A stretch of 64,000 bases of DNA from Leptotrichia sp. oral taxon 223. Lineage in GTDB: Bacteria > Fusobacteriota > Fusobacteriia > Fusobacteriales > Leptotrichiaceae. This document shows positions 3,940 through 11,024 of this stretch, in pieces. Location of the stretch: NCBI RefSeq assembly GCF_013394795.1, contig NZ_JABXYU010000001.1, positions 620,001 through 684,000 on the forward strand. Direction: 5' to 3'. The notes beneath the pieces were generated by a model. That model did no database searches. It saw only the letters and a program-made list of their open reading frames with translations, and was not told where the DNA came from. The position numbers and the translations under genes are program-made. Positions within the stretch are counted from its first letter, which is position 1; each line of letters opens with the position of its first letter.

Positions 3940-5610
3940 TTAAAATAATCCTGAAATTACCCCATTTTCATCAATGTCAATTAACTCTGCCGCTGGCTTT
4001 CTAGGCAACCCCGGCATATCGATGATTTCTCCAGCCATTGCTACTAAGAATCCTGCTCCAGCTGATAATCTTACTTCATTGATTGTAATTATGAAGCCTG
4101 TTGGACGTCCTAGCAGATTTGGGTTATCTGATAATGATTTTTGTGTTTTTGAGATACATATTGGCAATTTATCATAGCCATTTTCTACATATTTTTTAAT
4201 ATTATTAAGTGCTTTTGGTGCAAAATTCACTCCATCTGCTCCGTAAATTTCTTTTGCGATTTTTTCTATTTTTTCCTGAATTGACAAGTTTAAATCATAA
4301 AGTGGAGTGTATTTTTTATCTGATTTTTCATTCTTTTCAATGGCGTTCATAACTTTTTCCACAAGCTCTTTTCCACCTTCTCCACCTTTTTCCCAGATTT
4401 CGCAGTTGGCAACTTCCACGTCCATTTTTGCACAGAAGTCTTTTATCACTTGAATTTCAGCGTCAGTATCAGTTATAAATTTGTTAATTGCCACAACAAC
4501 TGGCAAATTGTACTTTTGCATGCTTTCAATATGTTTTTCAAGGTTTACAAGTCCTTTTGTCAATGTTTCAATATTTTCCGACTTCAAATCCTTGTCTCCG
4601 CCGTGATGCTTCAATGCACGAACTGTCGCAACGATTACAATAACATTTGGCTCCAAGTTCCCAAGCCTAGCTTTTATATCCAAAAATTTCTCAGCTCCCA
4701 AATCAGCCGCAAATCCAGCTTCCGTAACCACATAATCCGACAATTTCAAAGCCATTTTTGTAGCCAGCAACGAATTACATCCATGTGCAATATTCGCAAA
4801 AGGTCCACCGTGAATAAATACAGGAGTGTTTTCTAAAGTCTGTACCAAATTAGGCTTTATTGCATCTTTTAGCAATGCAGCTACTGCCCCTTGAATATTA
4901 AGCTGCTTAACTTTAAGCATTTCCCCTTTTCTGTCATATGCAAAAACTATTTCGCCAATTCTTTCCTTCAAATCGGTAATAGAGTCAGCAAGACAGAAAA
5001 TCGCCATAATTTCCGAAGCAACCGTTATTTGAAACGAATTTTCACGAGGCACGCCATTCACTTTTGGTCCAAGCCCAACGACAATGCTTCTTAAATTTCT
5101 GTCATTCATATCAAGCACACGTTTAAAAGTAATATTATTCACATCAATATCAAGTTCATTTCCAAAATGTATATGATTGTCAATGCACGCAGAAATCAAG
5201 TTATGTGCAGCTGAAATTGCGTGAATATCCCCCGTAAAATGCAAGTTTATCTCTTCCATAGGTACTACTTGCGACATTCCGCCACCAGCAGCTCCACCTT
5301 TCATCCCAAACACAGGCCCCAAAGACGGCTCCCTAAGTGCGGCAATCGACTTATACCCAAACTTGTTCAACGCCTGAGTCAATCCAACAGTAACAGTGGA
5401 CTTTCCTTCCCCTGGAGGCGTAGGAGTAACAGCCGTCATCAAAATCAATTTCCCATCTTTTTTCCCTGCATTTCTTTTTAGCACTTCCAAACTAACTTTA
5501 GCCTTATATTTCCCATAAGGCTCAAAATCATCCTCCATAAGCCCAATACTTTCTGCAATCTCACCGATTTTTTTCAATTTCGCATTTTGAGCAATTTCAA
5601 TATCCGTCAT
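3940..5610 (-). CDS. fhs: Formate--tetrahydrofolate ligase
   Basis: A 556-residue enzyme that joins formate to tetrahydrofolate using ATP, giving 10-formyl-THF for purine and fMet-tRNA synthesis. The ATP loop TPPGEGKST lies at 64-72 and the length matches the family (about 555-560). Conserved stretches such as [18 protein letters not shown] and [12 protein letters not shown]-like sequence are present. The start ATG follows AGGAGG by 8 bases. Upstream is a leader of about 200 bases with a consensus promoter (5822-5850) and a terminator-like hairpin ending about 35 bases before the start codon, so expression is probably set by early termination (see the leader entry). No folD or purine genes are nearby. 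Confidence 0.97.
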
Positions 5611-5644
5611 CCTAACATCCTCCTGTATTTTTTATTATTTATAT

Positions 5645-5758
5645 AAAAATCGAAAAAGCCATAAATTAGTAACTAAAAGACTTTTCCGATATTCATTTAT
5701 AATTTGTTCATTTTTTATAATTTTTTCTTTAGAAATTCATATTAGTTACTAATTTCTA
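5645..5758 (-). promoter_or_regulatory. Candidate transcription attenuator in the fhs leader
   Basis: Read on the minus strand, the leader first gives TAGAAATT/AATTTCTA (5751-5758 with 5730-5737), an 8-bp hairpin. Then comes a terminator-like hairpin with arms CGGAAAAGTC (5679-5688) and GGCTTTTTCG (5651-5660), which pair over all 10 positions if G-U is allowed, followed by ATTTTT. The 18-base loop of that hairpin holds TTAGTTACTAATTT, a perfect 14-base complement of AAATTAGTAACTAA (5742-5755), which lies partly inside the first hairpin. The two arrangements exclude each other, the usual design of an attenuator or riboswitch. I recognise no known aptamer (not the ZTP or THF motifs). Confidence 0.5.
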
Positions 5759-5821
5759 CAAGTGAGTCTCTTTCCCTAAATTAACCTACAATTCTAATTA
5801 ACATCATCTTCTCATAAATAC

Positions 5822-5850
5822 ATCATATTATATCTTTTTATAATTGTCAA
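5822..5850 (-). promoter_or_regulatory. Sigma70-type promoter for fhs
   Basis: On the minus strand TTGACA (5845-5850) is separated by 17 bases from TATGAT (5822-5827). This puts the transcript start near 5815 and gives a leader of about 205 bases before fhs. Direct match to the consensus; no experiment behind it. Confidence 0.65.
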
Positions 5851-5991
5851 TATTTTTAACAGTAATTCGTCTTTTTCATTTTTTTAAAAAACTGTTTTTA
5901 CAAGGATAAATATGAGACTTAATCTTCAATTTTGGAAGAATGCAAGATAATAAAGAATCAAGATTTAATATTAGATTGTTTTATTTAATAT

Positions 5992-6160
5992 CAGTTTTTA
6001 CTATTTTTACTGTTTTCTTTCTTTTTTTCGCAGGATTGCTCATTGCCGCAAATCCTGCACCTATGGCTAGACTACGACTTTTATTTGCCCAACTCCGAAA
6101 CTCCTCCTTTCAGTCGTCAAACAGTCGTAGCTGAACAAATAAAAGCTCCGTCGATTTATT
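5992..6160 (+). repeat. Modular palindromic repeat, family 1, copy A
   Basis: One of three related elements in this window (others 6231-6433 and 11371-11600). Read on the plus strand it holds a hydrophobic peptide-like stretch (VFTIFTVFFLFFAGLLIAAN), then CTATGGCTAGACTACGAC, then a large imperfect hairpin with arms 6078-6097 and 6126-6145 (CTTTTATTTGCCCAACTCCG against CGTAGCTGAACAAATAAAAG), and ends in GCTCCGTCG. It lacks a block of about 58 bases that copies B and C carry between the peptide and the CTATGG segment. It faces copy B head to head. The gap from the fhs promoter (5850) to polC (6627) otherwise holds only family 2 repeats. Confidence 0.75.
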
Positions 6161-6165
6161 AAAAC

Positions 6166-6230
6166 AAAAAAGTTATATTTTAAAATAATTAAAATATAAT
6201 TTTCATTTTTCAAACAGATTTTAGTATAAA
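6166..6230 (+). repeat. Family 2 intergenic repeat (partial), ending in TTTAGTAT
   Basis: The stretch AAAATATAATTTTCATTTTTC then AAACAGATTTTAGTATAA matches the right end of a second dispersed repeat found at 6487-6553, 23403-23514, 50646-50739 and 58152-58276. Here it fills the gap between copies A and B of family 1. Similarity was judged by eye in AT-rich sequence. Confidence 0.45.
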
Positions 6231-6433
6231 TAATCCGTCGGAGCATTTTTCTGTGCTGGCAAAACTGTCTGAGCATAGCGAGTTTTTTGTCAGTGCAGAA
6301 AAATGTCGTAGACTAGCCATAGGTTATTGCGTAGCAATCTTGCCACAATTTTGATTATTAGGATAAACCTTTACTGCAAGATAAGGTTTTGAGGCAATGA
6401 GCAATCCTACGAAAATAAAAAGAAAAAACATAA
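6231..6433 (-). repeat. Modular palindromic repeat, family 1, copy B
   Basis: Same outer parts as copies A and C (CCGTCGGAGC at one end, GTCGTAGACTAGCCATAGG after the hairpin), but the hairpin arms are of different sequence: 6244-6266 (CATTTTTCTGTGCTGGCAAA-type) against 6281-6305, still complementary. The apex is GTCTGAGCATAGCG. The block TTGCGTAGCAATCTTGCCAC to GCAAGATAAGG is present. On the minus strand a short frame from an ATG gives MFFLFIFVGLLIASKPYLAV and stops after KIATQ; a one-base insertion relative to copy C puts the rest out of frame. Confidence 0.75.
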
Positions 6434-6486
6434 TAATATGAAAAAATATTTATTAATCAAAATATCTAAAAAATAATTTAATGATT

Positions 6487-6553
6487 ATGAATTAGCTATT
6501 AAACAACCCTATTATAAAAATTTATTCCTATTTTTAAACGGGGTTTAGTATAA
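6487..6553 (+). repeat. Family 2 intergenic repeat, right half
   Basis: ATGAATTAGCTATTAAACAA followed by CCTATTTTTAAACGGGGTTTAGTATAA lines up with the right half of the copies at 50646-50739 and 58152-58276. It lies about 75 bases downstream of the polC stop codon. Boundaries are approximate. Confidence 0.45.
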
Positions 6554-6626
6554 CATATTTTATGCTTAAAAAATATAGATTAAAATGTTGTCAATATTGA
6601 AAACAAAATTGATTTTGTATTATTTT

Positions 6627-9600
6627 CTAAAATAATGTCTGCTGATTTGTTGCTGACAAATCCTTTAAACATCCATATTCTTTCATCAGTTCCACAATCG
6701 TTTTATTCAATTTTGTACGTTTTACTAAATCTTCGATTGATAAAAAGTCAACTTTTCGTTCAGAAACGATATTTTCAGCAACAGCTTCTCCTAGTCCATC
6801 CATTGCGATTAATGGCATTCTGATTTTGCCGTCCTGTATTGTGAAAAGTTTTGCTTCTGATTTATAAATGTCAATTTGTTCCAGTTCGATTTTACGGTAA
6901 TGCATTTCAATCAAAATTTCATATAGAAATAATTCTTGCTTTTCTTTAGCGTTTAAGTTTCCTTTTCTGTCCATTTCCATTTTTGCACGTTTCAATTCTT
7001 CTACTGGTCTGAACATTGTTGTCATTTTAAAATCTCCGACTTTTCTATTTAGGAAAGCTGTGTAAAATTCTATTGGATAATGCACTTTAAAATAAGCGAT
7101 TCTTACTGCCATCATTACATAAGCCACCGCATGCCCTTTTGGGAACATATATTTTATTTTTTCGCATGAATCAATGTACCACTGCTCTACACCGTGTTCT
7201 TTCATCGTTTTAGAATATTCCTGCCACTTTTCACGATTTTTGGTAGGCTGTCCTTTTCTTACAAATTCCATTATGGAAAAGGCTAATGATTTATCTAGTC
7301 CATCGTCAATCAGCTTATTCATAATGTCATCCCGCACTGTGATAATCTGACTCAAGGTTGCAATTCCACTTCTTACATAATCCTGTGCATTATTCAGCCA
7401 AACGTCCGTTCCGTGTGAAAGTCCAGAAATTCTGACTAATTCCGCAAAAGTTTTTGGACGTGTGTCAACTAACATCTGTTTTACGAAAGATGTACCAAAT
7501 TCGGGTATTCCTGATGTACCTGTCGGCGAGCCGATTTCATCGGGAGTTACACCAAGTACTTCTGTACCGCTGAATAAACTCATTACTTCCTTATCATCAA
7601 GCGGAATCGTATAAATATCAACACCTGTCAAATCCTGTAAAATTCTAAGCGTTGTCGGATCGTCGTGTCCCAGTATATCCAGTTTTACAAGCTGTTCGTC
7701 CATTACGTGATAATCAAAATGGGTTGTCTTGGAAGCTGATTTCATATCGTTTGCTGGACGCTGGATTGGGCAAAAATCGTAAATTGACTTGTCCTTTGGA
7801 ACGACTATCATTCCACCAGGATGCTGTCCAGTAGTTTTTCTAGCCCCTTCACAGCCTTTTGCGATTCTCATAACTTCTGCTTTTCTTTCCTTTATTTCAG
7901 GCGTTCCTTCCACTTCTTCAAGATACTTTTTCACATACCCAAAAGCATTCTTTTCAGCAAGCGTAGAAATCGTTCCAGCACGAAAGACATTGTCACTTCC
8001 AAACAGCTCTTCCGTATATTTATGAATTTCCCCTTGATATTCCCCAGAAAAGTTCAAATCAATATCTGGTACCTTATCTCCATTAAATCCCATAAACACT
8101 TCAAACGGGATTGCATGTCCATCTTTTATATATTTTGTACCACATTCTGGACAAGTTTTGTCAGGATAGTCAACTCCACTTCCTTCCTCATTCATAAATT
8201 CCGTATGCTTACATTTTGGACATCTGTAATGTGGATAAAGTCCATTTACTTCGGTAATTCCCATAAGATAGGCAACTATTGAAGATCCTACCGAACCACG
8301 TGAACCTACAAGATAACCTGCGTCCACCGATTTATGCACAAGTTTCTGTGCAATCAGATAAAGCACCGCAAATCCATTTTGAATAATCGAATTAAGCTCC
8401 TTTTCCACTCTTTCCTTCAGGCTTTCATCAATATTTTCCCCATAAAGTTCCTCAAGTTTCTTATAAGTCATTTCCCTTACTTCATCTTCTGCCCCATCAA
8501 TTTTTGGCGGATAGAATCCAGTTGGAATTGGACGCACCTGTTCTATTATATCGCTAATTTTATGGGTATTTTCGACAACGACTTCCTGAGCCACTTCTTC
8601 TCCCAGATAATCAAACGCCTCCAACATTTCTTCGGTAGTTTTAAAATACAATTTTCTATCAAAAAACTCATATCCTCTCACTCCTTCCGAAGTTTCAGTT
8701 TTCCACATCATTCCACTTCCCAAAAGAAGAACATTCCTGTTAATCGCTTCACGCTCTTCAAGATAATGTGCATCCCCTGTGGCAACTACAATTTTATTCT
8801 GACTTTTTCCAAGTTCGTAAAAATACTTGTTCATTTCCTTTATTATATCGTAACTTTCAATTTCCTTGCTCGTTCTTTCCACCATGTCAGCATAGTTTGT
8901 ATGTGGATGAATCTCGATATAATCATAAAATCTCGCTTTTTCCTCAATGTCATCTTTTTCCGCCCCACGTAAATAAAGATTTACAAGTTCTCCCTTATTT
9001 CTTTCAGAAGCCGAAGCAGAACTTGCAATTAGTAGATTTTTCCTCATGCTGTTTAACAAAGTTTTTGGTATTCTAGGTCTTCTCATTCCAAAAAATTCTA
9101 TGTTGGAACGTGATACAAGCTCGTATAGGTCACGAAGCCCAGCCTGATTTTTTACCAAAATCATCGTGTTCAATGTTTCAGAATTTTGAATATTTGGCTG
9201 TAAATCCGTATTAATCTCAATCAATTTCAAAATCCCTTTACTTAAAATCATATTTAAAAATTTCTGAAAAACTTCCGCAGTAGCCTTTGCATCATCAACA
9301 GCCCTATGGTGTGTTTCAAGCGTAATTCCAAAATATTTTACCAAATTAGCAAGTCCATATCCTCTCAAATCTGGAAGCAATGTTCTAGCCAAAGGCAATG
9401 TATCAATCACGCTCGGAGAATACTCAAGTCCTTGCTCTATAGTTTTTTGCTTGATAAATCCCACGTCAAATTTCGCATTGTGGGCAACTACCGTTGTATC
9501 AGTACAAAATTCTAGAAATCTTGGCAGTACAGTTTCTATTTTTTCAGCATTTGCAACCATTTCATCAGTAATCGTTGTAAGCTCTGTTATTTTTGGCGGA

Positions 9601-11024
9601 ATTGGAATTTCAGGATTTACAAATTCAGAAAATTCTCCAATAATTTCCCTTCCACGCATTTTCACAGCCCCAATTTCAATTATCTTGTCATTAAACGGAT
9701 CAAACCCTGTCGTTTCAATATCAAATACAACATAAATTTCATCTTCAATCATCTTGTCCTTAGGATTTGTAATCAAGTCCTGCTCATCATCGACTACATA
9801 CGCCTCCATCCCAAAAATAACCTTAAAATCCTCATTTGCCTCCTTAAACGCAAACGGAAATGAATGCACTACTCCGTAATCTGTTACAGCAATCCCACTA
9901 TGCCCAAATTCTTTAGCCCTTTTCGCATAATCCTTGATTGACATAACTCCGCTCATTTCACTCATATTCGTATGTGCATGAAGTTCTATTCTTTTTTTCG
10001 GAGCATTGTCTTCCTTTTTCACATCTTTAGATTCTATAGCTTCCACTCTTTGAGTTCTGACATATTTTTCCCCACTATACATATCCGCCTCAAAACTTCC
10101 AGTAACTTTTATCCACTCCCCAAGTTTTACCTTAATATCCTCATCCGTGTTAAAAAATATTCTACAACTAACAGAGTCTGTATAATCTGTAATCATAAAA
10201 TCACACATTAACTTCCCATTTTTAGTTTCCCTCATATCCACATTAAAAATTTTTCCTTCTAGTGCCACATCATCGCCATTGTTCAAAATATCAAGTGTAG
10301 AAAATGGCATTGCATCTATATCAGGAATTTTTTTCCATTTATAATTACCTTTATTGTTGCCTCCATTAGCATTCCCGCCATTTGAATAACCGTTTCCGTT
10401 ATTTCCGTTATTAAAATTTCCGTTTCCTCCGTAATTATTTCCATTACCATTGCTCATACTAACATTTTCATACTTTGGAAGTTCACTTGCTTTTACCGAA
10501 TTTAATTCATTTTGAGCCTTAATTTTAGCCTTCACTTCCTCAAAATCCCCATTTACAAACTCAATTTTTATCGAATTATCCATACATTCATAAATTTTTC
10601 TTGTAAGTTCTTCCTTTGCCTCAGTTCGTCTTGCCTCTTCTATCAAATGGTGCGATGGTAATTTTATAAACACCGTATTTTCCAAACTTTCCACTTCATA
10701 ACTTGCAAAAATATACTGATACCTCTTGCTCTCATGCTTATAATTCTCAATCGCAAATTTTACAAATCCAACAACATCCTTCTGTATCAGCTCAGGATTA
10801 ACATCCATCTTAATCTTCAATTTCAGCCCATTCTCAAAACTCTTATAAAGCAGCTGCCTCAAGTCCTGTATCTCACTATGTGCAACCAGACTGCTTACCT
10901 TTATGAATATCTCCATCTCCCTTTTCCTAGAAAACAGATTAACATACTCAATCTCAAAATTCTTAATTCCATATTTTCTAAAAAAATCTTCTGATGGCTT
11001 AACCTTCAAATACTTCGTACTCAT
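6627..11024 (-). CDS. polC: DNA polymerase III alpha subunit, PolC type (with 3'-5' proofreading exonuclease)
   Basis: A 1465-residue replicative polymerase. In order: N-terminal domain (1-180), a Gly/Asn-rich linker (about 191-227), an OB fold (about 250-330), a PHP domain starting IELHAHTNMSEMSG (H349, H351), which is split by an inserted DEDD exonuclease (FDIETTG, D435/E437), then the polymerase core with a four-Cys zinc site (CPKCKHTEF and CPECGTKY) and the catalytic PDIDLNF motif. This order is diagnostic of PolC. In PolC bacteria it is the main fork polymerase, working with DnaE, whose gene is also in this window. ATG start; a purine-rich AGGGGG lies further upstream than usual. The gene is monocistronic here, with a 770-base gap before it. 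Confidence 0.97.
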   Translation of the reverse strand: MSTKYLKVKPSEDFFRKYGIKNFEIEYVNLFSRKREMEIFIKVSSLVAHSEIQDLRQLLYKSFENGLKLKIKMDVNPELIQKDVVGFVKFAIENYKHESKRYQYIFASYEVESLENTVFIKLPSHHLIEEARRTEAKEELTRKIYECMDNSIKIEFVNGDFEEVKAKIKAQNELNSVKASELPKYENVSMSNGNGNNYGGNGNFNNGNNGNGYSNGGNANGGNNKGNYKWKKIPDIDAMPFSTLDILNNGDDVALEGKIFNVDMRETKNGKLMCDFMITDYTDSVSCRIFFNTDEDIKVKLGEWIKVTGSFEADMYSGEKYVRTQRVEAIESKDVKKEDNAPKKRIELHAHTNMSEMSGVMSIKDYAKRAKEFGHSGIAVTDYGVVHSFPFAFKEANEDFKVIFGMEAYVVDDEQDLITNPKDKMIEDEIYVVFDIETTGFDPFNDKIIEIGAVKMRGREIIGEFSEFVNPEIPIPPKITELTTITDEMVANAEKIETVLPRFLEFCTDTTVVAHNAKFDVGFIKQKTIEQGLEYSPSVIDTLPLARTLLPDLRGYGLANLVKYFGITLETHHRAVDDAKATAEVFQKFLNMILSKGILKLIEINTDLQPNIQNSETLNTMILVKNQAGLRDLYELVSRSNIEFFGMRRPRIPKTLLNSMRKNLLIASSASASERNKGELVNLYLRGAEKDDIEEKARFYDYIEIHPHTNYADMVERTSKEIESYDIIKEMNKYFYELGKSQNKIVVATGDAHYLEEREAINRNVLLLGSGMMWKTETSEGVRGYEFFDRKLYFKTTEEMLEAFDYLGEEVAQEVVVENTHKISDIIEQVRPIPTGFYPPKIDGAEDEVREMTYKKLEELYGENIDESLKERVEKELNSIIQNGFAVLYLIAQKLVHKSVDAGYLVGSRGSVGSSIVAYLMGITEVNGLYPHYRCPKCKHTEFMNEEGSGVDYPDKTCPECGTKYIKDGHAIPFEVFMGFNGDKVPDIDLNFSGEYQGEIHKYTEELFGSDNVFRAGTISTLAEKNAFGYVKKYLEEVEGTPEIKERKAEVMRIAKGCEGARKTTGQHPGGMIVVPKDKSIYDFCPIQRPANDMKSASKTTHFDYHVMDEQLVKLDILGHDDPTTLRILQDLTGVDIYTIPLDDKEVMSLFSGTEVLGVTPDEIGSPTGTSGIPEFGTSFVKQMLVDTRPKTFAELVRISGLSHGTDVWLNNAQDYVRSGIATLSQIITVRDDIMNKLIDDGLDKSLAFSIMEFVRKGQPTKNREKWQEYSKTMKEHGVEQWYIDSCEKIKYMFPKGHAVAYVMMAVRIAYFKVHYPIEFYTAFLNRKVGDFKMTTMFRPVEELKRAKMEMDRKGNLNAKEKQELFLYEILIEMHYRKIELEQIDIYKSEAKLFTIQDGKIRMPLIAMDGLGEAVAENIVSERKVDFLSIEDLVKRTKLNKTIVELMKEYGCLKDLSATNQQTLF

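Follow-up and report, generated by a model that had tools for sequence, protein, structure and literature searches.

A conserved terminator core in the fhs leader of Leptotrichia: a candidate transcription attenuator

The leader of fhs in Leptotrichia sp. oral taxon 223 can be read as a transcription attenuator of that gene, in which a switch would act on a conserved core by occupancy. From the sequence comparisons presented here, we assign this reading a probability of about 0.5; that the leader is a regulated attenuator of some kind is probable. Attenuation had been proposed in a preliminary description of the same DNA, and it gains support from two sides: a terminator core is conserved in nine of the 13 Leptotrichia genomes compared, and the element has been called independently, as the fhsA motif, in the text of a published paper (PMC11109978). 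The comparison also corrects the preliminary picture, as it points to the terminator core and away from an aptamer built on a pseudoknot of the upstream hairpin P1. Throughout, the window is the whole stretch of 64,000 nucleotides that was analysed.

Layout of the fhs leader in the window

The gene, its promoter and the elements between them are as follows.

5822..5850, minus strand: near-consensus promoter TTGACA-17-TATGAT, with 11 of 12 consensus matches
5732..5756, minus strand: P1, a weak hairpin (GAAATT...AATTTC); the 14-base complement (5755-5742) lies in its 5' arm and loop
5697..5709, minus strand: conserved 13-base flank GAACAAATTATAA, just upstream of P2, with 1 of 13 columns varying over nine genomes
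5673..5696, minus strand: candidate upstream open reading frame (uORF) ATG...TAG (MNIGKVF), spanning the P2 5' arm, with its stop in the P2 loop
5649..5690, minus strand: P2, a terminator-like hairpin (5' arm 5690-5679, loop 5678-5661, 3' arm 5660-5649)
5663..5676, minus strand: loop segment TTAGTTACTAATTT, complementary to P1 in the window genome only, among the genomes compared
5641..5649, minus strand: U-rich tract 3' of P2
5619..5624, minus strand: Shine-Dalgarno sequence AGGAGG of fhs, with an anti-Shine-Dalgarno energy of about -10 kcal/mol
3940..5610, minus strand: fhs, formate-tetrahydrofolate ligase, 556 aa, with its start at 5610

All the parts listed in the preliminary description are present, namely the promoter, a leader of about 205 bases between promoter and fhs, a terminator-like hairpin about 35 bases before the gene (35-38 bases from P2 to the start codon) and a perfect 14-base complement. 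Transcription would start near 5815. The promoter is retained in the relatives with the same leader type, including L005, L007 and L010. Upstream of it, about 770 bases (5851-6626) separate the promoter from polC (6627-11024) in the window; several relatives have the end of the upstream gene near the promoter.

The P2 hairpin has the features of an intrinsic terminator. P2 alone folds with -15.6 kcal/mol and P1 with only -2.8 kcal/mol. An automatic terminator scan reported no terminator in 5000-7800, P2 included; the scan admits loops of up to 8 bases and the P2 loop has 18. The leader as a whole is as stable as its shuffles (z -0.03), and its overall stability is not taken as evidence.

The 14-base complement pairs 5755-5742 exactly with 5676-5663. 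When the leader was dinucleotide-shuffled 3000 times, pairings of at least 14 bases arose in 3 shuffles (0.001), and shuffling only the region upstream of the hairpin gave P values of 0.002-0.003. Among 312 tiles of 205 bases from the window, the best pairing was 12 bases long. On its 3' side, all 14 bases lie inside the P2 loop and none is shared with the P2 stem. The pairing would thus compete with P1, and with P2 only in the way that a pseudoknot would. A fold with the 14-bp helix has a predicted energy of -21.7 kcal/mol versus -24.4 kcal/mol for the fold with P1 and P2, which makes it 2.7 kcal/mol worse.

Conservation of the leader across Leptotrichia

The comparison covered 13 genomes of the genus, with fhs found in all 13, and a pattern search covered 98 genomes of the class. 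The P2 arms occur in nine of the 98, all of them Leptotrichia (9/13 in the genus, 0/85 elsewhere), and the P2 core precedes fhs in each of the nine. Across these genomes a single column of the 44 in the flank and P2 arms varies, whereas 107 of the 209 fhs fourfold sites do (Fisher, 4e-11). Within the six genomes with a long leader, variable columns number 1/44 in the core, 23/112 in the other leader sequence and 53/81 in the sequence before the promoter (core against remaining leader, P 0.003).

Conservation does not extend to the P2 loop, which differs among the nine genomes in sequence and in length (by up to 5 bases). The nine genomes yield seven distinct alignment rows, in which 15 of 16 P2 positions are paired throughout and one is unpaired in every row. 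Variation affects two pairs, each on one side only and both still pairing as G-U; no two-sided compensatory change was found at any P2 pair in these rows. On this alignment, the P2 stem is backed by conservation rather than by compensatory change.

The hairpin is absent in four of the 13 genomes. In L005 a Shine-Dalgarno sequence follows the same promoter directly, without P2, and L011-L013, whose fhs is 92% identical, carry unrelated leaders; control by P2 would thus be dispensable in these four. The preliminary description had named a leader not conserved among related fhs genes as evidence against its proposal, and on this point the result is divided between a hairpin missing from 4/13 genomes and a P2 core that is near-invariant in 9/13. 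L003 keeps the core, and a promoter of the same type was not found there. Just upstream of fhs in L013, on the opposite strand, Rfam matches an L10_leader (RF00557, 51.9 bits; L013:1122-1294, minus strand).

L007 and L010 both retain promoter and core, with only 47 and 69 bases between the start and the core. No P1 is recognisable by eye in either, and P2 is unchanged. Since both leaders are short and have no significant loop complement, the core appears to suffice in these two genomes.

These observations bear on the function proposed with the published motif. The fhsA motif (WRC-63-1) is described as a weak riboswitch candidate before fhs in Leptotrichia, with 52 representatives; its P2 terminator hairpin follows another hairpin, and a pseudoknot from loop to hairpin was proposed as the antiterminator (PMC11109978, NAR 2024). 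Under the reading as a folate riboswitch, tetrahydrofolate or a one-carbon derivative would raise or lower the stability of the P1-P2 loop pseudoknot, which would prevent P2 and allow readthrough. We regard this as unlikely, although it has in its favour a published proposal resting on more representatives than the set analysed here, the perfect 14-base complement of the window, and a 13-base loop complement (with G-U) in L004 and L009 (P 0.003-0.006 by run length, 0.002-0.005 by energy).

The pairing itself is poorly kept. P1 is common to six of the 13 genomes (the window and five relatives), and its pairing is intact in each of these, the one change being A-U/G-U. The window's 14 loop pairs, by comparison, form in 69.5% of the scorable cells of the six long-leader genomes. 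Four are broken in three or all five of the relatives (column pairs 66-158, 67-157 and 76-148 in five of the six genomes, 73-151 in three of the six), five further pairs are gapped in five of the six, and none of the 14 shows a two-sided change in these genomes. Measured by duplex energy, the loop complement reaches significance in three of the nine core genomes, L001 (0.002), L004 (0.005) and L009 (0.002); in the remaining six, L002, L003, L006, L007, L008 and L010, it does not (0.10 to 0.73). The partner in L004 and L009 is another upstream segment than in L001, and the loop complementarity may have more than one origin. Judged by these alignments, there is no pseudoknot shared among the 13 genomes. 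The preliminary description had seen in the mutually exclusive pairings the switch itself, a claim that the comparison does not bear out: none of the five relatives that have P1 keeps the complement, and relatives with an unchanged P2 have another or a shorter sequence in the upstream half of the leader.

Nor does the leader contain a large conserved aptamer. Before the core, its evolution is not much slower than that of fourfold sites, with 23 of 112 columns variable versus 72 of 215. A riboswitch has a conserved aptamer-like domain ahead of its expression platform, whereas here the sequence before the core varies, is replaced or is shortened in relatives that keep P2. The absence of a recognisable P1 from L007 and L010 and the energetic cost of a 14-bp helix that takes in no P2 stem base argue in the same direction.

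Occupancy of the core as a proposed switch

We infer that transcription terminates at P2 and that passage beyond it is regulated. About 35 bases ahead of fhs, RNA polymerase would run into the P2 terminator, and only polymerases that pass it would make fhs mRNA. Because the 14-base pairing is confined to the window genome, and P2 persists in two relatives that have no recognisable P1, control, if fhs is attenuated, probably runs through the P2 core; the P1-loop pseudoknot would be at most a lineage-specific addition. Most likely, the switch would act on the flank and the 5' arm of P2, where an occupant would prevent the arm from pairing.

As the leading candidate for this occupant we tentatively propose a ribosome on the frame MNIGKV(F/S/Y)-stop, which would cover the P2 arm and end in the loop; an RNA-binding protein or another factor would be the next candidate. 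Start, frame and stop position of the seven-codon uORF are kept in all nine cores, with the peptide MNIGKVF in seven, MNIGKVS in L002 and MNIGKVY in L007. Three of its four variable columns are silent third positions (GTC/GTT, TTT/TTC, TAA/TAG), and the fourth is the second-position column that yields S or Y; changes are few overall. No Shine-Dalgarno sequence precedes the frame in the nine cores (anti-Shine-Dalgarno energy -0.6 kcal/mol in most, range -0.6 to -3.0). Moreover, conservation of the 5' arm would be expected in any case for one strand of a hairpin, and AT-rich loops often contain stops. The case for a functional uORF is suggestive only. A separate upstream frame, noted by eye in L006 and L008, was rejected as a leader peptide, as it is interrupted in L001 and its changes are mostly non-silent.

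P2 could instead be a fixed, unregulated terminator that caps upstream readthrough or ends a short leader RNA, with fhs expressed from constant partial readthrough. P2 does resemble an ordinary AT-rich terminator for which there is no known effector, and the proximity of the upstream gene's end to the fhs promoter in several relatives would suit such a role. We nevertheless consider it improbable: between a strong promoter and that promoter's own gene, P2 is poorly placed as an insulator, the 13 bases before it are conserved beyond the needs of a terminator, and four relatives lack it.

It is very improbable that the core serves as an operator on the DNA or as a second promoter, with no RNA switch. 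Its arms do form an inverted repeat whose sequence is invariant, but the distance between them differs by up to 5 bases (half a helical turn), which fits an RNA loop and hardly the two half-sites of an operator. In its own genome, BLAST found no second copy of the core with a meaningful score (next best E 0.008), no conserved -35-like sequence was seen by eye before the flank, and no Bacillus-type PurR was found. PurR was rejected as a DNA-level regulator since PF09182 matches only frames of 686 and 689 aa, long frames unlike PurR, as judged by length alone.

Other Fusobacteriota and known systems

Short frames that run into a terminator before fhs are not restricted to Leptotrichia. The 94 fhs loci loaded comprise 13 of the genus and 81 of other genera, and 31 of the latter, found by searches and by reading, have a CTAAGT...ACTTAG terminator before fhs. 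We tabulated 29 of them; L169 and L173, which resemble L163 by eye, are outside the table. In 29 of 29 a frame led by a Shine-Dalgarno sequence ends at or in the terminator hairpin, a count drawn from loci selected for the terminator, many of them close relatives, and hence not 29 independent events. These loci are L014-L016, L136-L139, L148-L158, L161-L167, L170, L172, L190 and L201, and they belong to seven genera (g5 12, g27 5, g15 4, g21 3, g25 3, g22 1, g26 1). The stop lies between 4 bases before and 36 bases after the start of the CTAAG motif. No stop occurs ahead of the hairpin in 27 of the 29 frames, and in L163 and L167 the sole stop is the final one, 4 bases before the hairpin; the two other reading frames have 1 to 8 stops each. 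The frame in which the hairpin is read varies by genus, which argues against one conserved peptide. Literature searches, which covered few subscription journals, returned no mention of this layout before fhs in Fusobacteriota.

A purine riboswitch lies ahead of the frame in 24 of the 29 loci by Rfam positions, the exceptions being L163, L166, L167, L170 and L172; genus g4 has ZTP riboswitches before fhs instead, in the loci scanned. The order of elements is possibly that of a relay from purine riboswitch to uORF to terminator. In L148-L150 (genus g21), the riboswitch seemingly has its own terminator-like hairpin, followed by the uORF and a second terminator, giving two attenuators in series. 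Another purine riboswitch follows fhs in L148 (3146-3243), L162 (3169-3266), L163 (3161-3258) and L138 (3144-3241), with an apparently ordinary terminator and then a frame resembling purL by eye. Second fhs copies occur in G023, G053 and G068, of a related family.

A wider and more speculative scheme, which we think doubtful as a whole, would place fhs in Fusobacteriota under a terminator read by translation. A ribosome on a short frame would decide fhs transcription, the Leptotrichia frame would be cut to seven codons and sense formylation, and a riboswitch would gate the frame elsewhere. A frame this short over the P2 arm would let even a ribosome at the initiation step obstruct the hairpin. 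If formyl-Met-tRNA ran short, slow initiation would keep the arm unpaired and increase fhs expression, and the leader would sense 10-formyl-tetrahydrofolate, the product of its own gene. In most other genera that have the layout, the purine riboswitch in front could gate translation of the frame, which would complete the relay. A leader whose terminator is read by a ribosome would report on initiator-tRNA formylation or on translation, with a direct tie to the enzyme that supplies the formyl group. The recurrence of the frame-into-terminator layout in several genera offers a testable alternative to a search for a folate ligand.

When comparing the window leader with known RNA families, no Rfam 15 family exceeds its gathering threshold, and the only matches at E up to 10 are two eukaryotic ones, set aside as chance matches. 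As plausible signals, the preliminary description had suggested folate, formate, glycine or purine. Riboswitches for purine (RF00167) and ZTP (RF01750) do precede fhs in related genera, and neither matches the window leader even at E up to 10. The preliminary view that no known class fits stands for Rfam 15, and is superseded in so far as the element is already in print as the fhsA motif (PMC11109978), the only paper found to describe it; a search for the name fhsA found no other. Viral contigs contained no fhs relative, and their four matches to an 18-base core pattern were in no case followed by the other arm.

The fhs leaders of other Fusobacteriota share with the window leader a short frame that ends at or inside a terminator close upstream of fhs. 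They differ from it in their strong Shine-Dalgarno sequences, in frames of 16-51 aa with no sequence homology to the Leptotrichia uORF, in the CTAAGT...ACTTAG terminator and in the purine riboswitch that mostly stands in front. Outside the phylum, the fthC motif of Streptococcus (uORFC-39-1) is described as a uORF candidate for which sensing through initiator tRNA was proposed (PMC11109978). It resembles the window leader in its one-carbon gene, its terminator and a uORF stop that is often in a hairpin; with an SD-like region, three hairpins, and a different gene and phylum, the likeness is one of layout only, as far as the text of that paper describes it.

The closest system is the fhsA motif itself, of which the window leader, by its fit to the text description, would be an already known representative. 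The two share the gene, the genus, the P2 terminator and, in the window, a preceding hairpin able to pair with the P2 loop. Set against the published motif, the 13 Leptotrichia genomes leave its shared pseudoknot unsupported, and they add a start-to-stop frame over the 5' arm of P2 that is absent from the text on the fhsA motif.
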